Origin: an uncultured Prevotella sp.
GTDB taxonomy: Bacteria; Bacteroidota; Bacteroidia; Bacteroidales; Bacteroidaceae
NCBI GenBank assembly: GCA_900316295.1
Contig: ONCJ01000013.1
Span: forward strand, 1 to 48,093
Direction: 5' to 3'
DNA length: 48,093 nt
Shown one piece after another: positions 29,784 to 38,662 of this stretch. The position numbers were made by a program, and so were the translations under genes. The notes beneath the pieces are model-generated. The model did not search any database, had not been told where the DNA came from, and saw nothing but the letters and a program-made list of their open reading frames with translations. Position 1 is the stretch's first letter; every line of letters begins with the position of its first letter.

Positions 29784-30851
29784 ATGAATGTGCAAAGCAA
29801 CAAAAAAGTCCTTCTGATATATACCGGAGGTACTATCGGAATGGGGAAAAACGAGTTGACAGGCGCATTGGAGCCTCTCGACTTCAGAGAACTGACCGAG
29901 CGACTACCAGAACTGAGACAACTGGCAATAGAGGTGGGTGTATATCAGTTTGAGTCGCCCATAGACTCTTCTGACATGTCGCCGGCATTGTGGGCAAAGA
30001 TTGCAAGAATAATCATTGAAGACTATGAGGAATATGATGGGTTTATCATACTTCATGGCACGGACACGATGGCATATACGGCATCTGCGTTGTCGTTTAT
30101 GTTAGAGAATCTGACTAAACCCGTAATACTCACAGGTAGTCAGCTGCCGATAGGTCAGCTGCGCACAGACGGCAGGGAAAATCTTATAACAAGCATTGAG
30201 CTGGCTGCCGCCCATCATCCTGACGGCAGGTCGATGGTGCCCGAGGTATGTATTTACTTCAATGGTCATCTGCTTAGAGGTAACCGCTCGACAAAACAGA
30301 ATGCCGACGGGTTTAACGCTTTCGCCTCGTTCAACTATCCAAGTCTATGTGATGCAGGTGTCGACTTCACATACCATGATCACCACATATTGCAGCCCGA
30401 CTACGACGCACCACTGCTGCCACACCTCGACCTGAATCCCAATGTGATAGTATTCTCGCTGTTCCCGGGACTGCAGGAGAGTCTGGTAGGTCATCTGCTT
30501 GACGCACCATTGCTGAAAGGTATAGTGATGCGTACGTTTGGCTCAGGCAACGCACCCCACGAGAAGTGGATAATGAACCTACTGAAAAAAGCCAGCGAAC
30601 ATGGTGTGGTGGTAGTAAACATCAGCCAGTGTATGGCAGGACGAGTGGCAATGGAGCGCTACGGCACTGGCTATCAACTGCAAGACGCAGGAGTGGTGAG
30701 CGGATATGACAGTACGGTGGAGGCTGCCGTAACAAAACTCATGCACCTATGGGGCAGGTATGATAATTATGAAGATGTGTTCGACAGTATGAACCGTAGC
30801 CTTGCAGGAGAGATAACCCTACCTCAGGACAAACATAAAAGAATAGTATAG
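29784..30851 (+). CDS. ansA: Type I L-asparaginase
   Basis: AnsA hydrolyses L-asparagine to aspartate and ammonia; type I enzymes are cytoplasmic. The 355-residue protein has the first catalytic motif IYTGGTIGM (Thr14 and Thr17) and the second HGTDTMAYTA at about 91-100, followed by LTGSQLPIGQLRTDGRENL. It has no signal peptide, consistent with type I. The 3' end overlaps the converging membrane protein gene by 33 bp (30819-30851), so there is no room for a terminator between them. Confidence 0.95.
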   Translation: MNVQSNKKVLLIYTGGTIGMGKNELTGALEPLDFRELTERLPELRQLAIEVGVYQFESPIDSSDMSPALWAKIARIIIEDYEEYDGFIILHGTDTMAYTASALSFMLENLTKPVILTGSQLPIGQLRTDGRENLITSIELAAAHHPDGRSMVPEVCIYFNGHLLRGNRSTKQNADGFNAFASFNYPSLCDAGVDFTYHDHHILQPDYDAPLLPHLDLNPNVIVFSLFPGLQESLVGHLLDAPLLKGIVMRTFGSGNAPHEKWIMNLLKKASEHGVVVVNISQCMAGRVAMERYGTGYQLQDAGVVSGYDSTVEAAVTKLMHLWGRYDNYEDVFDSMNRSLAGEITLPQDKHKRIV

Positions 30852-31427
30852 CTGGGAAGATACGACAAACAGGGGGACAACAACAGCAAACCATCGGACA
30901 CCAGAGCACAACACTGAATAGGCATCACCAACAGAAGTAACATGTCGGCTCGCAACACAATAGGTGAGCGAACATAGCGTAACGGTAAAACAAAGGATGG
31001 CTATCAAACCGTCAGAGAAGCTACTGGGGAACAGATTGCCCGTGACACTGAGCAACAAGGCATGAGGTACGATGGTGAGCAACAGCACAAGAGTAACGAT
31101 GGTGAGCAACTGGATGACGACAATATGAAGGGCATAGGCTGAAGGAGACTGTCTGTGAGCCTTCAAAGCACTATCGAAGGCTCCACCAGCTATTGACATC
31201 AACAACAGCCATACGAGCAGAGGCGACTGAAGGTTGGTCATGAAATGTCCTACGAACCAACGTATTCCCTCGGCACTAAGCAGCGAGCGCACCATCAGCT
31301 CGGGTGCCGTAGCAGCGATGAGCCACGACACCAGGAAGAGCAGCAGCTGGAGACATACGACGACCAGCGTGGCCCATCCCAACCAACGGCATGCAGCACG
31401 ATAACATTGTAGATGCTTATTCTTCAT
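30819..31427 (-). CDS. Short membrane protein resembling the first part of AbgT carriers
   Basis: The 202-residue protein has about five hydrophobic segments (roughly 17-38, 62-83, 100-120, 138-160 and 176-197). The stretch VRSLLSAEGIRWFVGHFMTNLQSPL and the following helix resemble the early part of AbgT-family (p-aminobenzoyl-glutamate) transporters, which are about 500 residues long. The present protein is less than half that, without evident frameshift, so it is either a shortened paralogue with a new role or only superficially alike. It overlaps the response regulator stop by 11 bp, so it is translationally coupled to the two-component system. The ATG at 31427 is chosen over 31514, which would lie deep in the regulator gene. 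Confidence 0.7.
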   Translation of the reverse strand: MKNKHLQCYRAACRWLGWATLVVVCLQLLLFLVSWLIAATAPELMVRSLLSAEGIRWFVGHFMTNLQSPLLVWLLLMSIAGGAFDSALKAHRQSPSAYALHIVVIQLLTIVTLVLLLTIVPHALLLSVTGNLFPSSFSDGLIAILCFTVTLCSLTYCVASRHVTSVGDAYSVLCSGVRWFAVVVPLFVVSSQLYYSFMFVLR

Positions 31428-32139
31428 CTGGTTGCAGATTGTCGATATCAATAATTCGCAATTCCAAGGCACGCACGACGAGACGGGTGGCATTGACTCC
31501 TCCCCTATTGCCACCAGGGAAGAGTTTCTGTACTAACTCATTCTGGCGCTTTTCCAGACTCTTTACGCCAAACGGCATACCGCGAAGCGATGTGATCTGC
31601 TCCTTGGTATATCCAAGTGCGAGATGGCGCAGGAAGCGCTCATCATACTCATCAATCTCATAGTCGACCATAGCCTCCTGATGGAGCAGTTGGCTGCCGA
31701 CACTCTTCTTAAACCGCTCGACGACTTTCTCAAGTATTGGCTGATTGAACACCAGCCGCTTGCCGCTCATCACACTCGAGACATCGCCTCGGGTAAGTAG
31801 CTCGCCACTCTTCAGACAGATACCATCGGCACCAGCATCAAGCACGTCTACCCACAGTTTCTCGTTGAGTATCTCACCTGTGAAGATAAGCACCTTTACT
31901 TGCGGACTCGTCTCCTTGGTCTGACGACATATCTCCACACCAACCGTAGTAGAACCACCAAGACCAAGATCAAGTAAGACGAGATCCGGCTTCTGTTGCT
32001 TCATCAGTCGCCAATATTCTATTTCATTCTCTGCCTTACCTATTATCTCTGCCTCTGGGATTTCGTTACGAAAGATACCCTCTGTCCCTTTGAGTTCCAA
32101 AGGCACATCCTCAACTATGATAACCTTCAAATTCTCCAT
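31417..32139 (-). CDS. Response regulator with receiver and LuxR-like HTH domain
   Basis: The 240-residue protein has an N-terminal receiver domain: acidic residues in IIVEDVP, phospho-acceptor Asp57 in LVLLDLGLGG, the Thr/Ser in LIFTGE and Lys in ICLKSG. The C-terminal part (about 165-235, YDERFLRHLALGYTKEQITSLRGM ... KSLEKRQNELVQKLF) looks like a divergent LuxR/NarL-type winged or tetrahelical DNA-binding domain. It sits 66 bp downstream of the giant sensor kinase and is the obvious partner. The third gene of the set is the short membrane protein. Confidence 0.85.
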   Translation of the reverse strand: MENLKVIIVEDVPLELKGTEGIFRNEIPEAEIIGKAENEIEYWRLMKQQKPDLVLLDLGLGGSTTVGVEICRQTKETSPQVKVLIFTGEILNEKLWVDVLDAGADGICLKSGELLTRGDVSSVMSGKRLVFNQPILEKVVERFKKSVGSQLLHQEAMVDYEIDEYDERFLRHLALGYTKEQITSLRGMPFGVKSLEKRQNELVQKLFPGGNRGGVNATRLVVRALELRIIDIDNLQPDEE

Positions 32140-32205: not shown

Positions 32206-35200
32206 TTATATTTCTTTGCTTCGCACCATCGTGATTGTCATGAGTGTTCCTGCAGGATTTGGCGAGGCTATGATGCCACAGCCTCGAGCGTTAGTGGCAT
32301 CACCAAGATCGCGGACTATCTGTCGACACAACAGATATGGCAGATGTTCTACTGACGGAGTGAAAAGGTCATGACACTGTCGTTCGTCGAGAGACAAGCC
32401 CATAACCAGAACCTTAACATCTACATATTGTCCATTGGCAGCACCTACACTGACCTTAATACCGTCTTGACCTGCCTGTCGCTGCAGGATGGTAAACATA
32501 TATCTCAGCATGTCTGGATCGCCAAGCAATGATATGTCTTCAGAGCATTCCACCACATCGGACAACATCAGCCTGCTTACTTGCAGTCGTACGGAGTCAA
32601 CCTGCCGCATAGCTTGCATGCTGAGAATGGAATACAACTCCTTGTAGAAGGTTGCCAGTTCACTTATCGACTGGAGGTCCTGATCCTTATCCTCCAACAA
32701 TTGGTGTATCCTGGAAGGATAATACATGGTCTCGTGCTTGAGTGTGGAAAGGCAGTTATCAAGTATGCTATTGCTGACATGTAGTCGTCCGTCCTCATAG
32801 CGTGCTCGCTGACGTTCGTCTTCCAGCAAAGATATCTGCTCTTTGTCAACCTTATTTTTCTCCAGCGACTGCGACAACACGTCAATGATATCCTGTACTA
32901 TCTGGTGCAGCGTATCAGGAAAACGGTTAGTGGCTATTGGCATTATGCCATCGAGCTTGCTCTCCACATCCATATCGCTGAGAAGTATGGTGTTGATTTT
33001 CTTCACTCTGTCTACGCACAGTCGTTCGTAGAGCCTGTGCCTGTAAAACAGGAAATAATATGCAGGGAAGAGTAAAATCAGCATCACAACAAGTATCCAT
33101 ATAGCAATGTTTTTGTTCATTTCCGAACGTTGCATTGCACGACAGTAATCGCCAAGGGTGACATCGGCAGACAACTCCTTGAAGAGTTGGGTATACACCT
33201 TATTATTATATCTATATAGTTGCCAATCGTGCAGCGCCAATGCTGCCACAGCGCTCTCGTTACGGATAGAAAGAACAACATTATAGTCGACATGCATTCC
33301 ACTACGAAACCATTCCACCTCGGCTATCTTACCGTCGACATCATGGTCACGCGACATCAGCAATCCACTGTTGGGATGCATCTGCTTATAATATCTGTTC
33401 AGACAGTCTCGACAACTATCAGCAAAGAGAAGCGTCTGTCTGTATGTGCCACGTATATTGCTTTGGAAGGCAGAATCTGCGTATGCACTCGCCTTGTCGA
33501 TGATGTCAGCCTGAATATTAACGCTGCCAGCAGCGAATAGTAACTGCGGCAACAACATTATCATACCGACAAGCAGGCGCATGATGCCTCTGGGCAGTCG
33601 GAAGAAAAAGCGACTGCCCTTGCCAAGAGTACTTTCAGCCGACAGAGTACAGACACTGAATATCTGACTTATCTTCTTGTATTTCTCAATGATACCCTTA
33701 CAGTTCATCAGCCCGAAGCCATGACCATTGGCTATCTTATGGTCAAAGATACCTGCCAACTGTTCCTGTGTCATACCTTCGCCAGTATCTTCCACAAATA
33801 TCTCTACGTAGCTGTCTGTAGCCGCGGAACCGATGGTTACCTTACCGCCAGCAGCAGTATACTTGCGAGCATTGTCTGCGATAGTATTGATCATGAAGAG
33901 AGTAAGGATTTTGTCTGCCTTTACCACATCAGCAGTCGGCAAGACATCGAGGCTGATACCCTTCATCTGGAAGCTCATACTACCTCGCTTCACGATATCA
34001 AAGAGCTGAGCCAGCGGAAAACTCTCTATATGCAGGCTTAACTCTCCCTGACGAAGTTGTATCCATTGGGTCAGTACCCCATTGTAGTTGTTGATACTAC
34101 CAGTAAGCTCTTTGATATATTCCAACCGTTCGCTTCTTACTTCGTCCGTCTCCTGAGTATGTTGCAGCTTATCAATCTCATGTAGCATACGATCAATAAG
34201 TGGTGTGATGCTATTGACGAGCGACACCTTAGCGCGCTGTTCCAGATTGCGCTTCTTATTATTTATAATATGTGTAACATTCAGAGCATAGTCTTCTTGT
34301 ATCTCTTCAAGCCTCGATTCCATCTCACTGGTCTTCTGTTCGTTGCGGCGTTTCCACTCCTGAAGAGGTTCCGCCAGTTGCTGGAGTGGATGTAACCGTT
34401 TCTGTCGGCGACGAAGCCAGTCGAACAATAAGAAGAGAGCTATCATGATTAATATAGCCATTATCACCGTCGCAATCATCCAATTGAGCTGACGCGACGT
34501 ACGTTCCAGCTGTTCGGCACGCGACTCCAGATAACGGTCTTGACGTGTCTCATCCTGTAGGTCCAAATAGATATTGCGATTGTAGTCACTTTTTGACTTA
34601 TCGTCGATACTTGAATACGTGACACTCAACTGCTCCCTAATAGATGCTACGAGGTCGGGAGCCTGCTCAATAGCTTTGTTTTCGTTGAGAGCCTTGTCCA
34701 GACAGATTATTGCCGACCTGTAGTCGTTGATATGCCAATAGCACTGCGCCAAGGTACGATAGGCTCCTGCTATCTGATAGACATCACCAAAGGTATGGAA
34801 CATATCCAATGAGCGTTGTGCCAGATTGCCTGCGAGAAGGCTGTCAGGCATGTTATCTACATTGAGAAACTTCATTGCTGGCAGGTTATCGGCTATCAGC
34901 CTGCCTCGCATTGTCTTCTCTTGCAGATGCTCGCTTATAGCCTGCAGGGAGTTTGCCTGCCAGAACAGGTAGCCGTTGCGCACAGAGGAAAGATAGCACC
35001 GCAGCAGATAATCCATCTCCTGTTGGGCAATCTCCTCAGCGGTACCATTGGTAATGATACCTCCTGCTCCCACATTATAATAATAGCTCAGCAACTGAGC
35101 CGTATCGCCTCTCACCTCACCATCGGGATTTATTGCTTCGATGGCTTGTATAGAGGGTTGCTCCAAGCCAACATAATAATAATATGTGGAAGTGACGACA

Positions 35201-35703
35201 GCAAATTCAGACCGAGCATATACCATGCGACGATACAAGTGTTCGTCGAGTCGTTGGGACTCCTCATCAATACGATGCATACGACGAAGTGCCGCCTCAT
35301 GGTAATCATAGAATTCCTTGTTGCGTGACTCACGTTGGCAAAGCCTCATCAACTGGATATCGGCAATCAACAGCTCTACTTGATTGTCTGTCACCAAGGC
35401 TACAGAGTCGAGCAATGTGTAGGCATTCCGATAGTCCATCTTCGAGATGCTTACAAATGCAAGATTGTTGAACGCCTCTGCCCTACCCGCTCCATAGTTG
35501 GAAGCCAACGACAGAGCACGCTGAGCATAGACACGAGCGGAATCAAGATTGCGATAGTGATAGGAATACGACAAGTTGTTCAACTTGTCAACGTCTTCCT
35601 TATAGGACGGCTTGCAAGCCGAAAAAAGAAAGAGACCCAATAGGAGCAAAAGTCCTATTGAGTCTCTTGTCAGGAGTATCTTATGCGCGAGCCTTGGCAA
35701 CAT
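32206..35703 (-). CDS. Large fused sensor kinase (DUF5112/DUF5113 type)
   Basis: Counting from ATG 35703 the protein has 1165 residues. It begins with a lipoprotein-like signal ([13 protein letters not shown], Cys30). A periplasmic TPR-like helical region follows, then TM1 at about 409-428 and a coiled coil. A DHp-like helix comes next, in which the expected H-box reads [12 protein letters not shown] without His. An intact HATPase domain follows (N-box IADNARKYT 608-616, G1 VEDTGEGM 637-644, G2 GHGFGLMN 660-667). Residues 708-726 look like a second signal peptide ([19 protein letters not shown]), followed by a second sensor region, TM3 at about 866-887 and a second DHp with LKHETMYYP (His990), ending in an ATPase-like domain without clear G boxes. 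It looks like two fused kinase genes. The start overlaps eda by 23 bp. Confidence 0.82.
35621..35667 (-). terminator. Terminator of kdgK-eda inside the sensor kinase signal peptide codons
   Basis: On the minus strand a 15-bp stem with one C-A mismatch (complement of 35653-35667 with 35631-35645), a 7-nt loop and CTTTCTTTTTTC afterwards. It starts 14 bp after the eda stop, a normal terminator place, but lies within codons 13-28 of the kinase gene. Confidence 0.8.
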
Positions 35704-36349
35704 AGCCAAGAGCCTCCTTGCATTTGTCGGTGATATATTGCCAGTCGCCAGCCTTAACCTTGTCGCTTGGGAAGAGCTTTGAACCCATACCCACGCAGTA
35801 GACGCCAGCCTTGAACCATCCCTTGAGGTTCTCCTCTTCAGGAGCAACACCACCAGTTACCATAATCTTCGACCATGGCATTGGAGCCTTCAGACCCTTC
35901 ACCATGTTTGGACCTACAACGTCGCCAGGGAAGACCTTCGTGAGGTCGCAGCCCAACTCTTGAGCCTTGCCAATCTCACTCACCGTCATACAGCCTGGGC
36001 AGTAAGGAACGAGTCGACGATTACATACAGGTGCTATGTCTGGATTGAAGAGCGGACCAACAACGAAGTTAGCTCCAAGCTGGATGTAAAGCGCTGCTGT
36101 AGGAGCGTCAACGACAGAGCCAATACCAAGAGCAAGCTCTGGACATTCCTTGTCAGCCCACTTTACCAACTCACCAAACACTTCCTGTGCGAAGTCGCCA
36201 CGATTGGTAAACTCAAAAGCACGTACACCACCCTCGTAGCAAGCCTTCACCACGTTCTTACATGTCTCAAGATCCTTATTATAGAAGACAGGAACCATAC
36301 CGGTGTCACCGATCTTCTTCATTACTGCTATTTTATCAAACTTAGCCAT
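35681..36349 (-). CDS. eda: KDPG aldolase (bifunctional 4-hydroxy-2-oxoglutarate aldolase)
   Basis: Eda splits 2-keto-3-deoxy-6-phosphogluconate into pyruvate and glyceraldehyde-3-phosphate, the last step of hexuronate degradation. In the 222-residue product the proton-shuttle Glu is in AFEFTNRG (Glu46), the Schiff-base Lys is Lys138 in [12 protein letters not shown], and [16 protein letters not shown] closes the barrel. It starts at ATG 36349; two extra Met codons upstream lie in the repeat. It follows kdgK by 30 bp, occupied by an AATTGATAATT-type repeat, and is cotranscribed with it. Confidence 0.95.
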
Positions 36350-36350
36350 A

Positions 36351-36383
36351 ATTATCAATTATCAGTTGTCAATTATCAATTAG
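36351..36383. repeat. AATTGATAATTGACAA-type intergenic repeat, copy B
   Basis: Read on the minus strand the run starts with the kdgK stop codon and is built of the same ATAATTG and ACAA(C/T)TG blocks as copies A (9811-9850) and C (42381-42412). It forms the whole kdgK-eda spacer. Confidence 0.65.
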
Positions 36384-37402
36384 CGCTGTACACGACCATT
36401 TGCATTACCGCCTGCGAGAGACTCTACCTCATCAACACCAACGAGATTGAAGTCACCATTGATAGTATGCTTCAGAGCAGAAGCAGCAACGGCAAACTCA
36501 AGAGCCTCACCCTGAGTTGGCTTAGTGAGCAGACCGTGGATAAGACCACCAGAGAAAGAGTCACCACCACCTACGCGGTCGATGATAGGATTGATCTCAT
36601 AGCGCTTGCTCTGATAGAACTCCTTTCCGTCATAGATAAGAGCCTTCCATCCGTTGAATGTAGCAGAGAAACTTTCACGAAGCGTAGATACTACATACTT
36701 GAATCCGAACTGCTCCTTCATCTGCTTGAAGATAGTCTCATATCCAGAAGCGTCGGTCACGCCACCCTCTACATCTGCGTCTGGCTTGAAACCGAGACAG
36801 AGCTCAGCATCTTCCTCGTTACCGATACAAACATCAACATATTGCATCAGAGGACGCATGATAGAGATAGCCTTTTCAGAGGTCCACAGCTTCTTACGGA
36901 AGTTAAGGTCTACAGATACGCATACGCCATGACGCTTTGCAGCCTCGCAAGCCAGCTTGGTCAGTTCTGCAGCCTTATCAGAAATAGCTGGAGTGATACC
37001 AGACCAGTGGAACCAAGCAGCACCCTCCATAATCTTATCGAAATCGAAGTCAGAAGGATCTGCCTCAGCAATAGAAGAATGCGCGCGATCGTAGATAACC
37101 TTTGACGGACGCATGCTGGCACCAGTCTCTGCATAATAGAGACCTACGCGGTCGCCACCACGAGCCACGAAATCAGTGTTCACGCCATAACGACGGAGTG
37201 CATTCACTGCAATCTGTCCAATCTCATGCTTTGGGAGTTTTGAAACAAAGTAGGCATCGTGACCATAATTTGCCACGCTTACTGCTACGTTGGCTTCACC
37301 ACCACCAGGGATGATACGGAAAGACTCACTCTGAATAAAACGATCATTTCCCTGAGGAGACAGGCGGAGCATAATCTCGCCCAATGTTACAATTTTTGCC
37401 AT
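36380..37402 (-). CDS. kdgK: 2-keto-3-deoxygluconate kinase (PfkB family)
   Basis: KdgK phosphorylates 2-keto-3-deoxygluconate to KDPG, the substrate of Eda. The 340-residue product has the PfkB N-terminal motif with GGGEANVAVSVANYG (residues 33-47) and the catalytic GGGDSFSGG at 278-286 with Asp281 as the base. FHWSGITPAIS and VDLNFRKKLW fit sugar-acid kinases. PfkB members for other sugars are hard to tell apart by sequence, but the direct pairing with eda and the closeness of uxaA make KdgK the clear choice. Confidence 0.93.
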   Translation of the reverse strand: MAKIVTLGEIMLRLSPQGNDRFIQSESFRIIPGGGEANVAVSVANYGHDAYFVSKLPKHEIGQIAVNALRRYGVNTDFVARGGDRVGLYYAETGASMRPSKVIYDRAHSSIAEADPSDFDFDKIMEGAAWFHWSGITPAISDKAAELTKLACEAAKRHGVCVSVDLNFRKKLWTSEKAISIMRPLMQYVDVCIGNEEDAELCLGFKPDADVEGGVTDASGYETIFKQMKEQFGFKYVVSTLRESFSATFNGWKALIYDGKEFYQSKRYEINPIIDRVGGGDSFSGGLIHGLLTKPTQGEALEFAVAASALKHTINGDFNLVGVDEVESLAGGNANGRVQR

Positions 37403-37477
37403 TTGATTTTGATTTTTGAAATTAAATAGTTTGTTGTATATTATTATAAGATTTGTTTACCATCGGCATATTTTCTG

Positions 37478-37485
37478 CAAATATA
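37478..37485 (-). promoter_or_regulatory. -7 box of the kdgK-eda promoter
   Basis: TATATTTG on the minus strand (complement of 37478-37485), 75 bp before the kdgK ATG. There is no good -33 TTG, which fits a promoter needing an activator. The operator candidate at 37552-37565 is 67 bp upstream. Confidence 0.5.
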
Positions 37486-37551
37486 CGACAATTTCTTTAG
37501 TTGACGAAAGAAAAAAGGACTTTTTTATCTCTTTTGTGAAAAATATCTTAC

Positions 37552-37565
37552 TGTGCGTTCGCACA
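37552..37565. promoter_or_regulatory. Palindromic operator candidate TGTGCGTTCGCACA
   Basis: Six-base arms TGTGCG and CGCACA are separated by TT. It lies in the divergent gap between kdgK and the LacI-type gene and covers the -33 position of the regulator's own promoter, so it is a natural autoregulatory site. Confidence 0.55.
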
Positions 37566-37581
37566 ATTCAAAGAAAAACGT

Positions 37582-37589
37582 TACTTTTG
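37582..37589 (+). promoter_or_regulatory. -7 box of the LacI-type regulator promoter
   Basis: TACTTTTG at 37582-37589. The ATG follows only 8 bp later (37598), so the mRNA would be leaderless or nearly so. The palindrome at 37552-37565 occupies the -33 region. Confidence 0.5.
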
Positions 37590-37597
37590 CCGAAGAT

Positions 37598-38662
37598 ATG
37601 ACACAGAAGATAAGAATTAAGGACATTGCTGAGCGTGCAGGCGTATCCGTAGGAACTGTAGACAGGGTACTACACAAACGGCCTAATGTATCTAAGCCAG
37701 CACTCGAGAAGGTAGAGCAAGCTCTGAAAGAGATGAATTACCAGCCAAACGTGTATGCCAGTGCTCTGGCATACAACAAGTCGTATACCTTCTACTGCAT
37801 GCTGCCAAAGCATAGCAGCGAGGCATATTGGAACGAGGTGGAAGATGGTGTCAAACGCTGCGTGGAAGCGCGACGCGACTTCCACATTGACGTTAAGCTG
37901 CTATTCTATCAGAGGTTCGACAACGATAGTTTCAACGAACAAAGTGAGATTTGCCTCAAAGAAAATGCCGACGGGGTAATCATTGTGCCGTCAGAACTGG
38001 ACATCACCCGAAAGTTTACCGATCAACTACACGAACGCAACATACCATTTATTCTTCTCGACTCATACATACCTGACCTGCAACCATTATCATTTTATGG
38101 TCAAGACTCGTTCCAGAGCGGATACTTTGCCGCGCGAATGCTCATGCTGATAGCTCGCGACGAAAAGGCTATAATGATAATGAAGCAGATCAAGGACGGA
38201 CACGTATCATCCAAACAGCAAGCCAACCGAGAGGTGGGATTTCGCCACTACATGCAAGATCACTTCCCATCAGTGAAAATACACGAAGTAGACTTGCCAT
38301 TAGACAAAGATCGTAAATACTACGACATGATACTTGAGAAGTTTTTTACTTCTCATCCAGAGGTACACCACTGTATCACTTTTGCTTCAAAGGCACACAT
38401 CGTGGGCGATTTTCTGCTCAAGACCAACCGACGCAGCATACAGATTATGGGCTACGACTTGGTGGGAAAGAATGTAGAGTGTGTCAAGCAAGGTAGCATC
38501 TCCTTCCTTATCTCTCAGCATGCCTTCATGCAAGGATACCTTTGCGTGGATGCCCTATTCCATGCTATAGTACTGAAGAAAAAGGTAAAACCCGTAAACT
38601 ACATGCCTATCGAACTGCTTACAAAAGAGAACATTGAGTTCTATAAACGTGAGAGTGTCTAA
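37598..38662 (+). CDS. LacI-family transcriptional regulator
   Basis: The 354-residue protein has an N-terminal LacI HTH (IRIKDIAERAGVSVGTVDRVLHKRPNVS) and a periplasmic-binding-protein-like effector domain from about residue 60 (NADGVIIVPSE at about 125, YDLVGKNVECVKQGSISFLISQ near 290). In the recognition helix the usual TVSRVL is TVDRVL. It is divergent from kdgK-eda and 39 bp upstream of uxaA on the same strand, so it most probably senses a hexuronate catabolite such as KDG and controls these genes. Effector and sign of control cannot be read from the sequence. Confidence 0.9.
   Translation: MTQKIRIKDIAERAGVSVGTVDRVLHKRPNVSKPALEKVEQALKEMNYQPNVYASALAYNKSYTFYCMLPKHSSEAYWNEVEDGVKRCVEARRDFHIDVKLLFYQRFDNDSFNEQSEICLKENADGVIIVPSELDITRKFTDQLHERNIPFILLDSYIPDLQPLSFYGQDSFQSGYFAARMLMLIARDEKAIMIMKQIKDGHVSSKQQANREVGFRHYMQDHFPSVKIHEVDLPLDKDRKYYDMILEKFFTSHPEVHHCITFASKAHIVGDFLLKTNRRSIQIMGYDLVGKNVECVKQGSISFLISQHAFMQGYLCVDALFHAIVLKKKVKPVNYMPIELLTKENIEFYKRESV

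Follow-up and report, generated by a model that had tools for sequence, protein, structure and literature searches.

The stretch of DNA analysed here, which we call the window, comprises 48,093 nucleotides from an uncultured Prevotella sp. (GenBank assembly GCA_900316295.1, contig ONCJ01000013.1, positions 1 to 48,093). Its minus strand carries a double sensor kinase gene followed by the gene for a response regulator (Table 1). The kinase frame is read through 1,165 residues with zero internal stops, and beyond an N-terminal sensor region it contains two successive kinase cores, referred to below as half 1 and half 2. Searches with Pfam recognise DUF5112, a single DUF5113 and, in half 1 only, HATPase_c; at E ≤ 1 they find neither HisKA nor a second HATPase_c in the kinase. 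DUF5112 and DUF5113 score 378.4 and 216 bits against curated cut-offs of 29.4 and 27.1, placing the protein in both families, and TPR accompanies DUF5112 in the N-terminal region. Two relatives from another genus of the family (G230 and G238) contain two complete DUF5113 copies in single frames of 1,440 and 1,495 amino acids. A further relative, L154 (3672–6743, minus strand), encodes a 1,024-amino-acid version from which most of the N-terminal sensor is missing; its two kinase halves remain and show the complementary defects described below. A search for defence families in the window returned 0 families and no tRNA was found in it; a phage library search gave two PHROG matches, both to the kinase region.

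Table 1 Features of the kinase and response regulator locus in the window.
Feature	Residues	Position	Strand	Basis
Double sensor kinase gene, whole	1,165 aa	32206..35703	-	Translated frame; family profile matches
Lipoprotein-type signal peptide, N-terminal, lipobox FSAC	1-30	35614..35703	-	Cys at C30 in 201/208 homologues
DUF5112, predicted periplasmic sensor	38-302	34798..35592	-	Pfam E 2.4e-113
First DUF5113 copy, partial	342-427	34423..34680	-	hhalign to second DUF5113 copy, prob 93.4
TM1	~407-428	34420..34485	-	Hydropathy; apolar run median 20 (208 homologues)
DHp1 helical hairpin without His	439-552	34048..34389	-	AlphaFold helices; alignment columns; register
His-equivalent of DHp1	V496/N497	34213-34218	-	Register from Pro count and HK853 superposition
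CA1, intact ATP-binding domain	604-705	33589..33894	-	HATPase_c E 9.6e-15; boxes 208/208
Internal signal-peptide-like segment	706-726	33526..33588	-	Run length and end-of-run test; matrix test weaker
Second DUF5113, end overlapping TM3	734-888	33040..33504	-	Pfam
TM3	~866-886	33046..33108	-	Apolar run median 22 (208 homologues)
DHp2 helical hairpin	930-1035	32599..32916	-	AlphaFold
His990 codon, presumed phospho-acceptor in KHETMYYP	990	32734..32736	-	208/208 non-redundant, 257/257 rows
CA2, degenerate ATPase fold	1043-1161	32221..32577	-	Fold match to kinase CA domains; boxes lost
Partner response regulator, receiver and DUF5932		31417..32139	-	Pfam; adjacent in 127/129 loci
Phospho-Asp57 codon of response regulator	57	31969-31971	-	D57 128/128

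The kinase was compared with 256 homologous loci, giving an alignment of 257 rows. Eighty loci come from Prevotellaceae contigs (the best 80 of at least 593) and the others were added in batches of 29, 20, 27 and 100; 208 of the 257 rows are less than 95% identical to one another and form the non-redundant set. The original prediction, made from the window alone, held that the protein consists of two fused sensor kinases with complementary defects, and all the sequence motifs quoted in it are present in the translated protein. Across the 208 homologues, loss of the histidine from half 1 and of the G boxes from half 2 are both conserved family-wide.

Half 1 retains the clear ATP-binding boxes that had been predicted for it. 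Residues N611, K614, D639, G641, G643 and G664, together with W547 and G553, are identical in 208 of 208 homologues, and G662 in 207. The H-box-like VNSITPLID of half 1 had been read as lacking a histidine, with asparagine in its place. As a reference we used 17 ordinary Bacteroidales kinases that resemble half 1 and have AHDLKNP-type boxes, in which proline lies at H+5 in every case and tryptophan at H+52 in 16 and H+53 in the remaining one. Half 1 keeps both landmarks, P501 and W547, 46 residues apart in 94 of 129 rows versus 47 in the ordinary kinases, and because this spacing agrees to within one residue the histidine position can be placed at 495–497. Counting back from the proline as in the ordinary kinases gives V496 as the equivalent, and superposition on HK853 (rows 2c2a, 4jav, 4jas and 4jau; arithmetic on the first aligned residues) gives 497. 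None of the 208 homologues has histidine at 495 or 496, and at residue 497 there are 128 with Asn, 22 with Thr, 22 with Tyr and 3 with His. The histidine is thus missing from half 1 whichever register is used; its replacement by asparagine holds for the HK853 register, in which 497 is the residue originally named, and for somewhat more than half of the homologues, and the proline count points to V496 instead. In none of the three homologues with His497 does an acidic residue follow, and this histidine may be a reversion or a relic. A different half-1 H-box, H508-E509, which hhalign had aligned with H990-E991, was considered and rejected: residue 508 is His in only 86 of 208 homologues and Asn in 88, and it lies about 12 residues past the place set by an H-to-W distance of 52, too far down the helix. 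No universally conserved histidine was found elsewhere in half 1 among the 208 homologues.

Half 2 has the reciprocal pattern. Its predicted His-bearing motif LKHETMYYP is borne out by K989, H990, E991 and P996, each present in 208 of 208 homologues, and in an earlier alignment of 129 rows, which otherwise gave the same picture, H990 was the sole invariant histidine of the protein. The absence of N, G1 and G2 boxes from the second ATPase-like domain likewise extends to the family: at the half-2 equivalents of the half-1 residues, Asn occurs at the N611 place in 3 of 208 homologues, Asp at the D639 place in 50 and the two G1 glycines together in a single one; a set of ATP-binding residues was not found in half 2. 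Some other genera have a relic DTRR at the place of the half-1 D-x-G-x-G box. Residues N611, D639, G641, G643, G664, H990 and E991 occur together in one frame in all 257 rows. The surroundings of H990 are atypical, with proline at H+6 rather than at H+5 as in all 17 ordinary kinases, and with tyrosine at H+4 in 202 of 208 homologues, a departure from the usual HE/DxxN/T phosphatase motif. Superposition of half 2 on HK853 (11 rows, by arithmetic) places the usual histidine at 983–986 in nine rows and at about 979 in two, four or more residues before H990, in a region where the DHp2 model alone has middling confidence. The presumed equivalence of H990 to a phospho-histidine rests on its conservation and on the HE...P motif, and not on superposition. 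Neither DHp-CA unit combines a phospho-histidine with an intact ATP-binding domain, as an ordinary kinase would; in 208 of 208 homologues the invariant histidine is in one half and the intact boxes are in the other, three of these also having His497 in half 1, and judged by sequence the protein has the layout of a split kinase, with kinase function and phospho-histidine on different units.

Comparison of profiles for residues 342–711 and 712–1165 gives a match over 315 columns with a probability of 98.5 and E = 2.9e-15, and the N-terminal region compared with half 2 and with the core of each half scores below a probability of 1. On this profile evidence the two halves are homologous, the product of an internal duplication of a DUF5113-TM-DHp-CA unit followed by complementary decay. 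Structure prediction of the halves yields DHp-CA folds in both models. AlphaFold modelled half 2 alone with a pLDDT of 87.9 and a pTM of 0.52, and residues 404–1165 as a single chain with 84.8 and 0.60. Each of the 50 Foldseek matches listed for half 2 either is a kinase DHp-CA structure or includes one, pointing to a histidine-kinase core in half 2. CA2 superposes on kinase CA domains with an rmsd of 2.1–3.3 Å over 112–120 residues (rows covering CA2 alone) and CA1 mostly with 1.5–2.2 Å over 129–147 residues (rows covering CA1 alone); the top structural match of CA1 is the CA domain of DivL. The predicted fusion of two homologous halves with divided labour is strongly supported by these family-wide complementary defects, and is backed further by the internal duplication and by a single adjoining response regulator with an invariant phospho-aspartate.

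Between the halves, a complete second signal peptide had been predicted to survive as a membrane segment. A signal-peptide-like segment is indeed present, with a basic start (LPKGxxR-like) and then an apolar run with a median length of 15 over 208 rows, compared with 17 in the N-terminal signal peptide, 20 in TM1 and 22 in TM3. An AxA motif occurs at the junction in 38% of the 208 rows versus 8.7% for TM1 and 0.5% for TM3, and 26 rows have a lipobox. Ala or Cys stands among the final three residues of the run in 67.3% of junctions versus 42.7% after shuffling (208 rows); in the same test, N-terminal signal-peptide-like stretches of neighbouring genes, chosen by a crude picking rule, give 78.9% versus 46.6% (n = 38), TM1 and TM3 give 9.6% and 2.9%, and other membrane-like segments give 29.3% versus 37.2% (n = 82). 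A test for signal peptidase I sites, using a -3/-1 matrix and a score of at least 4, finds a modest excess at the junction (0.413 versus 0.312 shuffled), a weaker result than that of the end-of-run test. The short run and its Ala/Cys ends make the segment look unlike a leftover membrane span, and the plain reading of these sequences is that the junction has been kept as a signal peptide, in many lineages probably as a substrate of signal peptidase I or II. This cleavable character looks like a new point that goes beyond the earlier membrane-segment view. In several relatives from other genera (L140, L138 and L111) the internal signal peptide reads as a lipoprotein signal, and half 2 may be lipid-anchored there.

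A junction that resembles a cleavable signal peptide raises the possibility of a polyprotein cut into a heterodimer. We give close to an even chance to a signalling polyprotein in which a signal peptidase I or II cut would separate the kinase half, a lipoprotein, from the histidine half; made in a fixed 1:1 ratio, the two would form an obligate heterodimer with exactly one ATP site and one phospho-histidine. That labour is split in the same way while the linker acts as an ordinary membrane anchor within a lasting single chain is a serious possibility too, somewhat short of even: in each of the 257 rows the reading frame continues unbroken across the junction, and neither a strong signal peptidase I site by this matrix nor a lipobox is seen in 103 of the 208 rows, that of the window among them, whereas the run length, the Ala/Cys ends and the 26 lipoboxes argue for cleavage. 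Of the original claim of one polypeptide, the single open frame stands; given a linker with cleavage-site features, the halves may no longer share one chain after synthesis.

Whether as one chain or two, the halves appear to meet through their helical hairpins. Mean-field residue couplings were computed from the 208 rows (about 168 effective sequences), ignoring shared descent. With that simplification, DHp1-DHp2 pairs account for 27 of the top 200 couplings against 12.2 expected, and the resulting ratio of 2.22 is the highest among the inter-domain classes counted; ratios within domains are 1.62 for DHp1, 1.06 for DHp2 and 2.43 for CA1, and CA1-DHp2 couplings show no enrichment (0.71). Compared with permuted columns, coupled DHp1-DHp2 pairs more often occupy equivalent layers of a four-helix bundle (p = 0.002 for the top 50 and p = 0.001 for the top 100), and the same holds against circular shifts (p = 0.031 and 0.010), with the best match at zero shift; in this layer test the DHp1 hairpin, which served as the positive control, gave no signal, and the signal of the DHp2 hairpin was weak. 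AlphaFold confidence for residues 976–1035 is about 14 points higher with half 1 included in the model, and the helix before it, 926–975, loses about 4 points in the joint model (about 91 to 87). Couplings and model confidence together moderately suggest that DHp1 pairs with DHp2, with the couplings blind to whether contacts form within a chain or between chains. We regard as unlikely the arrangement in which DHp1 and DHp2 each form separate homodimers, with CA1 phosphorylating H990 between dimers or never. Ordinary kinases are homodimers, and our AlphaFold models, being single-chain, are uninformative on homodimer pairing; against this, DHp1-DHp2 couplings exceed those within either hairpin and match by layer, and DHp2 gains confidence when DHp1 is present.

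The phosphate on H990 would pass to the adjoining regulator, whose gene lies directly downstream on the same strand in 127 of 129 loci; in the other two the sequence ends about 730 bases past the kinase frame. The regulator has the receiver residues of a two-component partner, with the acidic pair E10 and D11, the phospho-aspartate D57 and T87 identical in 128 of 128 sequences and K110 in 127. Among 301 family genomes, 233 carry kinase and regulator together and 67 carry neither, a concordance of 300 of 301 when kinase presence is set at E ≤ 1e-20, with G544 and G568 kinase-negative and 48 genomes regulator-negative by subtraction. No genome has the regulator only, and the one with the kinase only has a kinase frame heading for the contig end. 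These counts bear on a reading in which half 2, as a phosphotransfer module, would receive its phosphate from another kinase and CA1 would only bind ATP as a sensor or regulator. Pseudokinase regulators such as DivL and a ChrS variant are described (PMC9491836), yet the ATP-binding residues of CA1 are invariant, and no outside kinase is needed because kinase and regulator co-occur; we consider this reading quite unlikely. It is more improbable still that H990 stays unphosphorylated and the protein serves the regulator as a scaffold or phosphatase, an idea to which the off-register KHETMYYP box lends something, against the invariance of H990-E991 and of the receiver Asp57 and Thr87, the near-invariance of Lys110, and the absence of the usual phosphatase motif.

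The DUF5932 domain of the regulator is highly conserved and by eye resembles a degenerate NarL/LuxR-type DNA-binding domain. Beside the regulator, at 30819–31514 on the minus strand, lies a gene for a small membrane protein with no Pfam family and a weak match to the AbgT-type transporter PRK11339; it occurs in 78 of 80 Prevotellaceae loci and 0 of 20 loci from other genera, and is perhaps a third member of the system. On the other side (35681–38662), within flanks of a few kilobases, a KDPG aldolase gene lies near the sensor kinase in 53 of 80 Prevotellaceae loci, a KDG kinase gene in 51 and a gene for a LacI-type regulator in 50, against only 1–2 of 20 loci from other genera. In the window the sensor kinase gene starts (ATG at 35703) inside the end of the aldolase gene. 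A link to uronate use is possible and is offered as a lead only.

The kinase profile matches 279 of 301 family genomes at E ≤ 1e-3 and 234 at E ≤ 1e-20, about three quarters of those sampled; by the stricter threshold the gene is missing in 67, some of which are incomplete genomes. A search for genomes that carry the halves as separate genes, as the fusion hypothesis invited, found none among 198 genomes of the order and 296 of the phylum. A half-2 profile gave 4 matches in the 198 genomes, three in family members (the window's own included) and one a weak match to the ATPase region, and DUF5113 gave 4 in the 296, the sole one outside the family being a TPR protein. DUF5113 is also present in Bacteroides ihuae. 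The 256 aligned loci were picked by match to the whole protein and are a biased sample for finding split genes. Within the samples searched, the halves were met solely together and solely in this family.

We consider it probable, on conservation and modelling, that H990 receives phosphate from CA1 across a DHp1:DHp2 pair and hands it on to the regulator, making this a naturally asymmetric kinase. In the scheme we favour, a DUF5113-type membrane histidine kinase would have duplicated and its copies fused before complementary loss, half 1 retaining a working CA1 and dropping its histidine while half 2 retained H990 and dropped ATP binding. DHp1 and DHp2 would pack as one asymmetric four-helix bundle, and phosphorylation of H990 by CA1 would be obligately in trans, with one phospho-site per pair, before H990 hands the phosphate to Asp57 of the adjoining DUF5932 regulator. 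The DUF5112/TPR region and the two DUF5113 regions would face the periplasm and set activity, and the junction segment would take half 2 back across the membrane and, in many lineages, would probably be a cleavage site of signal peptidase I or II. What the sequences and models show is the conservation, the duplication, the predicted fold and the partner gene. From conservation and modelling we infer the CA1-to-H990 transfer; the DHp1-DHp2 pairing, catalysis, direction of phosphate flow, topology, cleavage and signal are inferred too.

Parts of this design have precedents. The incomplete kinases Rv0600c and Rv0601c of Mycobacterium tuberculosis place ATP-binding and histidine functions on two proteins from separate genes, whereas the Prevotella halves are fused. 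The Bradyrhizobium cytochrome b/c1 polyprotein FbcH is a single chain cut at an internal signal peptide; it forms a respiratory complex, whereas the Prevotella kinase is a signalling protein. In the Rhodobacter sphaeroides CheA3/CheA4 split kinase, the kinase domain is on one protein and the phospho-histidine on the other, and the two jointly phosphorylate the histidine; one estimate puts possible split bifunctional kinases at 1.7% of HisKA proteins (PMC3591291). The likeness lies in the separation of kinase function and histidine onto different units, but CheA3/CheA4 are two CheA-type genes, whereas here two mutually homologous membrane DHp-CA halves share one frame. Histidine pseudokinases, DivL among them, similarly combine a kinase fold with a catalytic defect, but DivL is a separate regulator of another kinase (PMC9491836), whereas the Prevotella gene contains two complementary defects. 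Literature searches, which left most subscription papers outside their scope, found no paper on DUF5112, DUF5113 or DUF5932 and no description of a fused complementary kinase, and the words heterodimer, split and degenerate are absent from the accessible part of PMC8534201. Split kinases and pseudokinases are already known; complementary halves fused in one frame appear, within the literature searched, to be new.

Most histidine kinases are symmetric homodimers, and this symmetry obscures whether transfer occurs in cis or in trans and why often only one of two sites fires. Here evolution would have separated the roles, and because the two roles sit in separate halves a single mutation in either half should isolate one step. 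The protein also offers a clean example of complementary loss after duplication. If cleavage occurs at the internal signal peptide, these bacteria would produce a signalling enzyme as a polyprotein, and if the proposed transfer from CA1 to H990 is correct, they would possess a natural, hard-wired asymmetric kinase, retained in most of a bacterial family that inhabits the gut, mouth and rumen.
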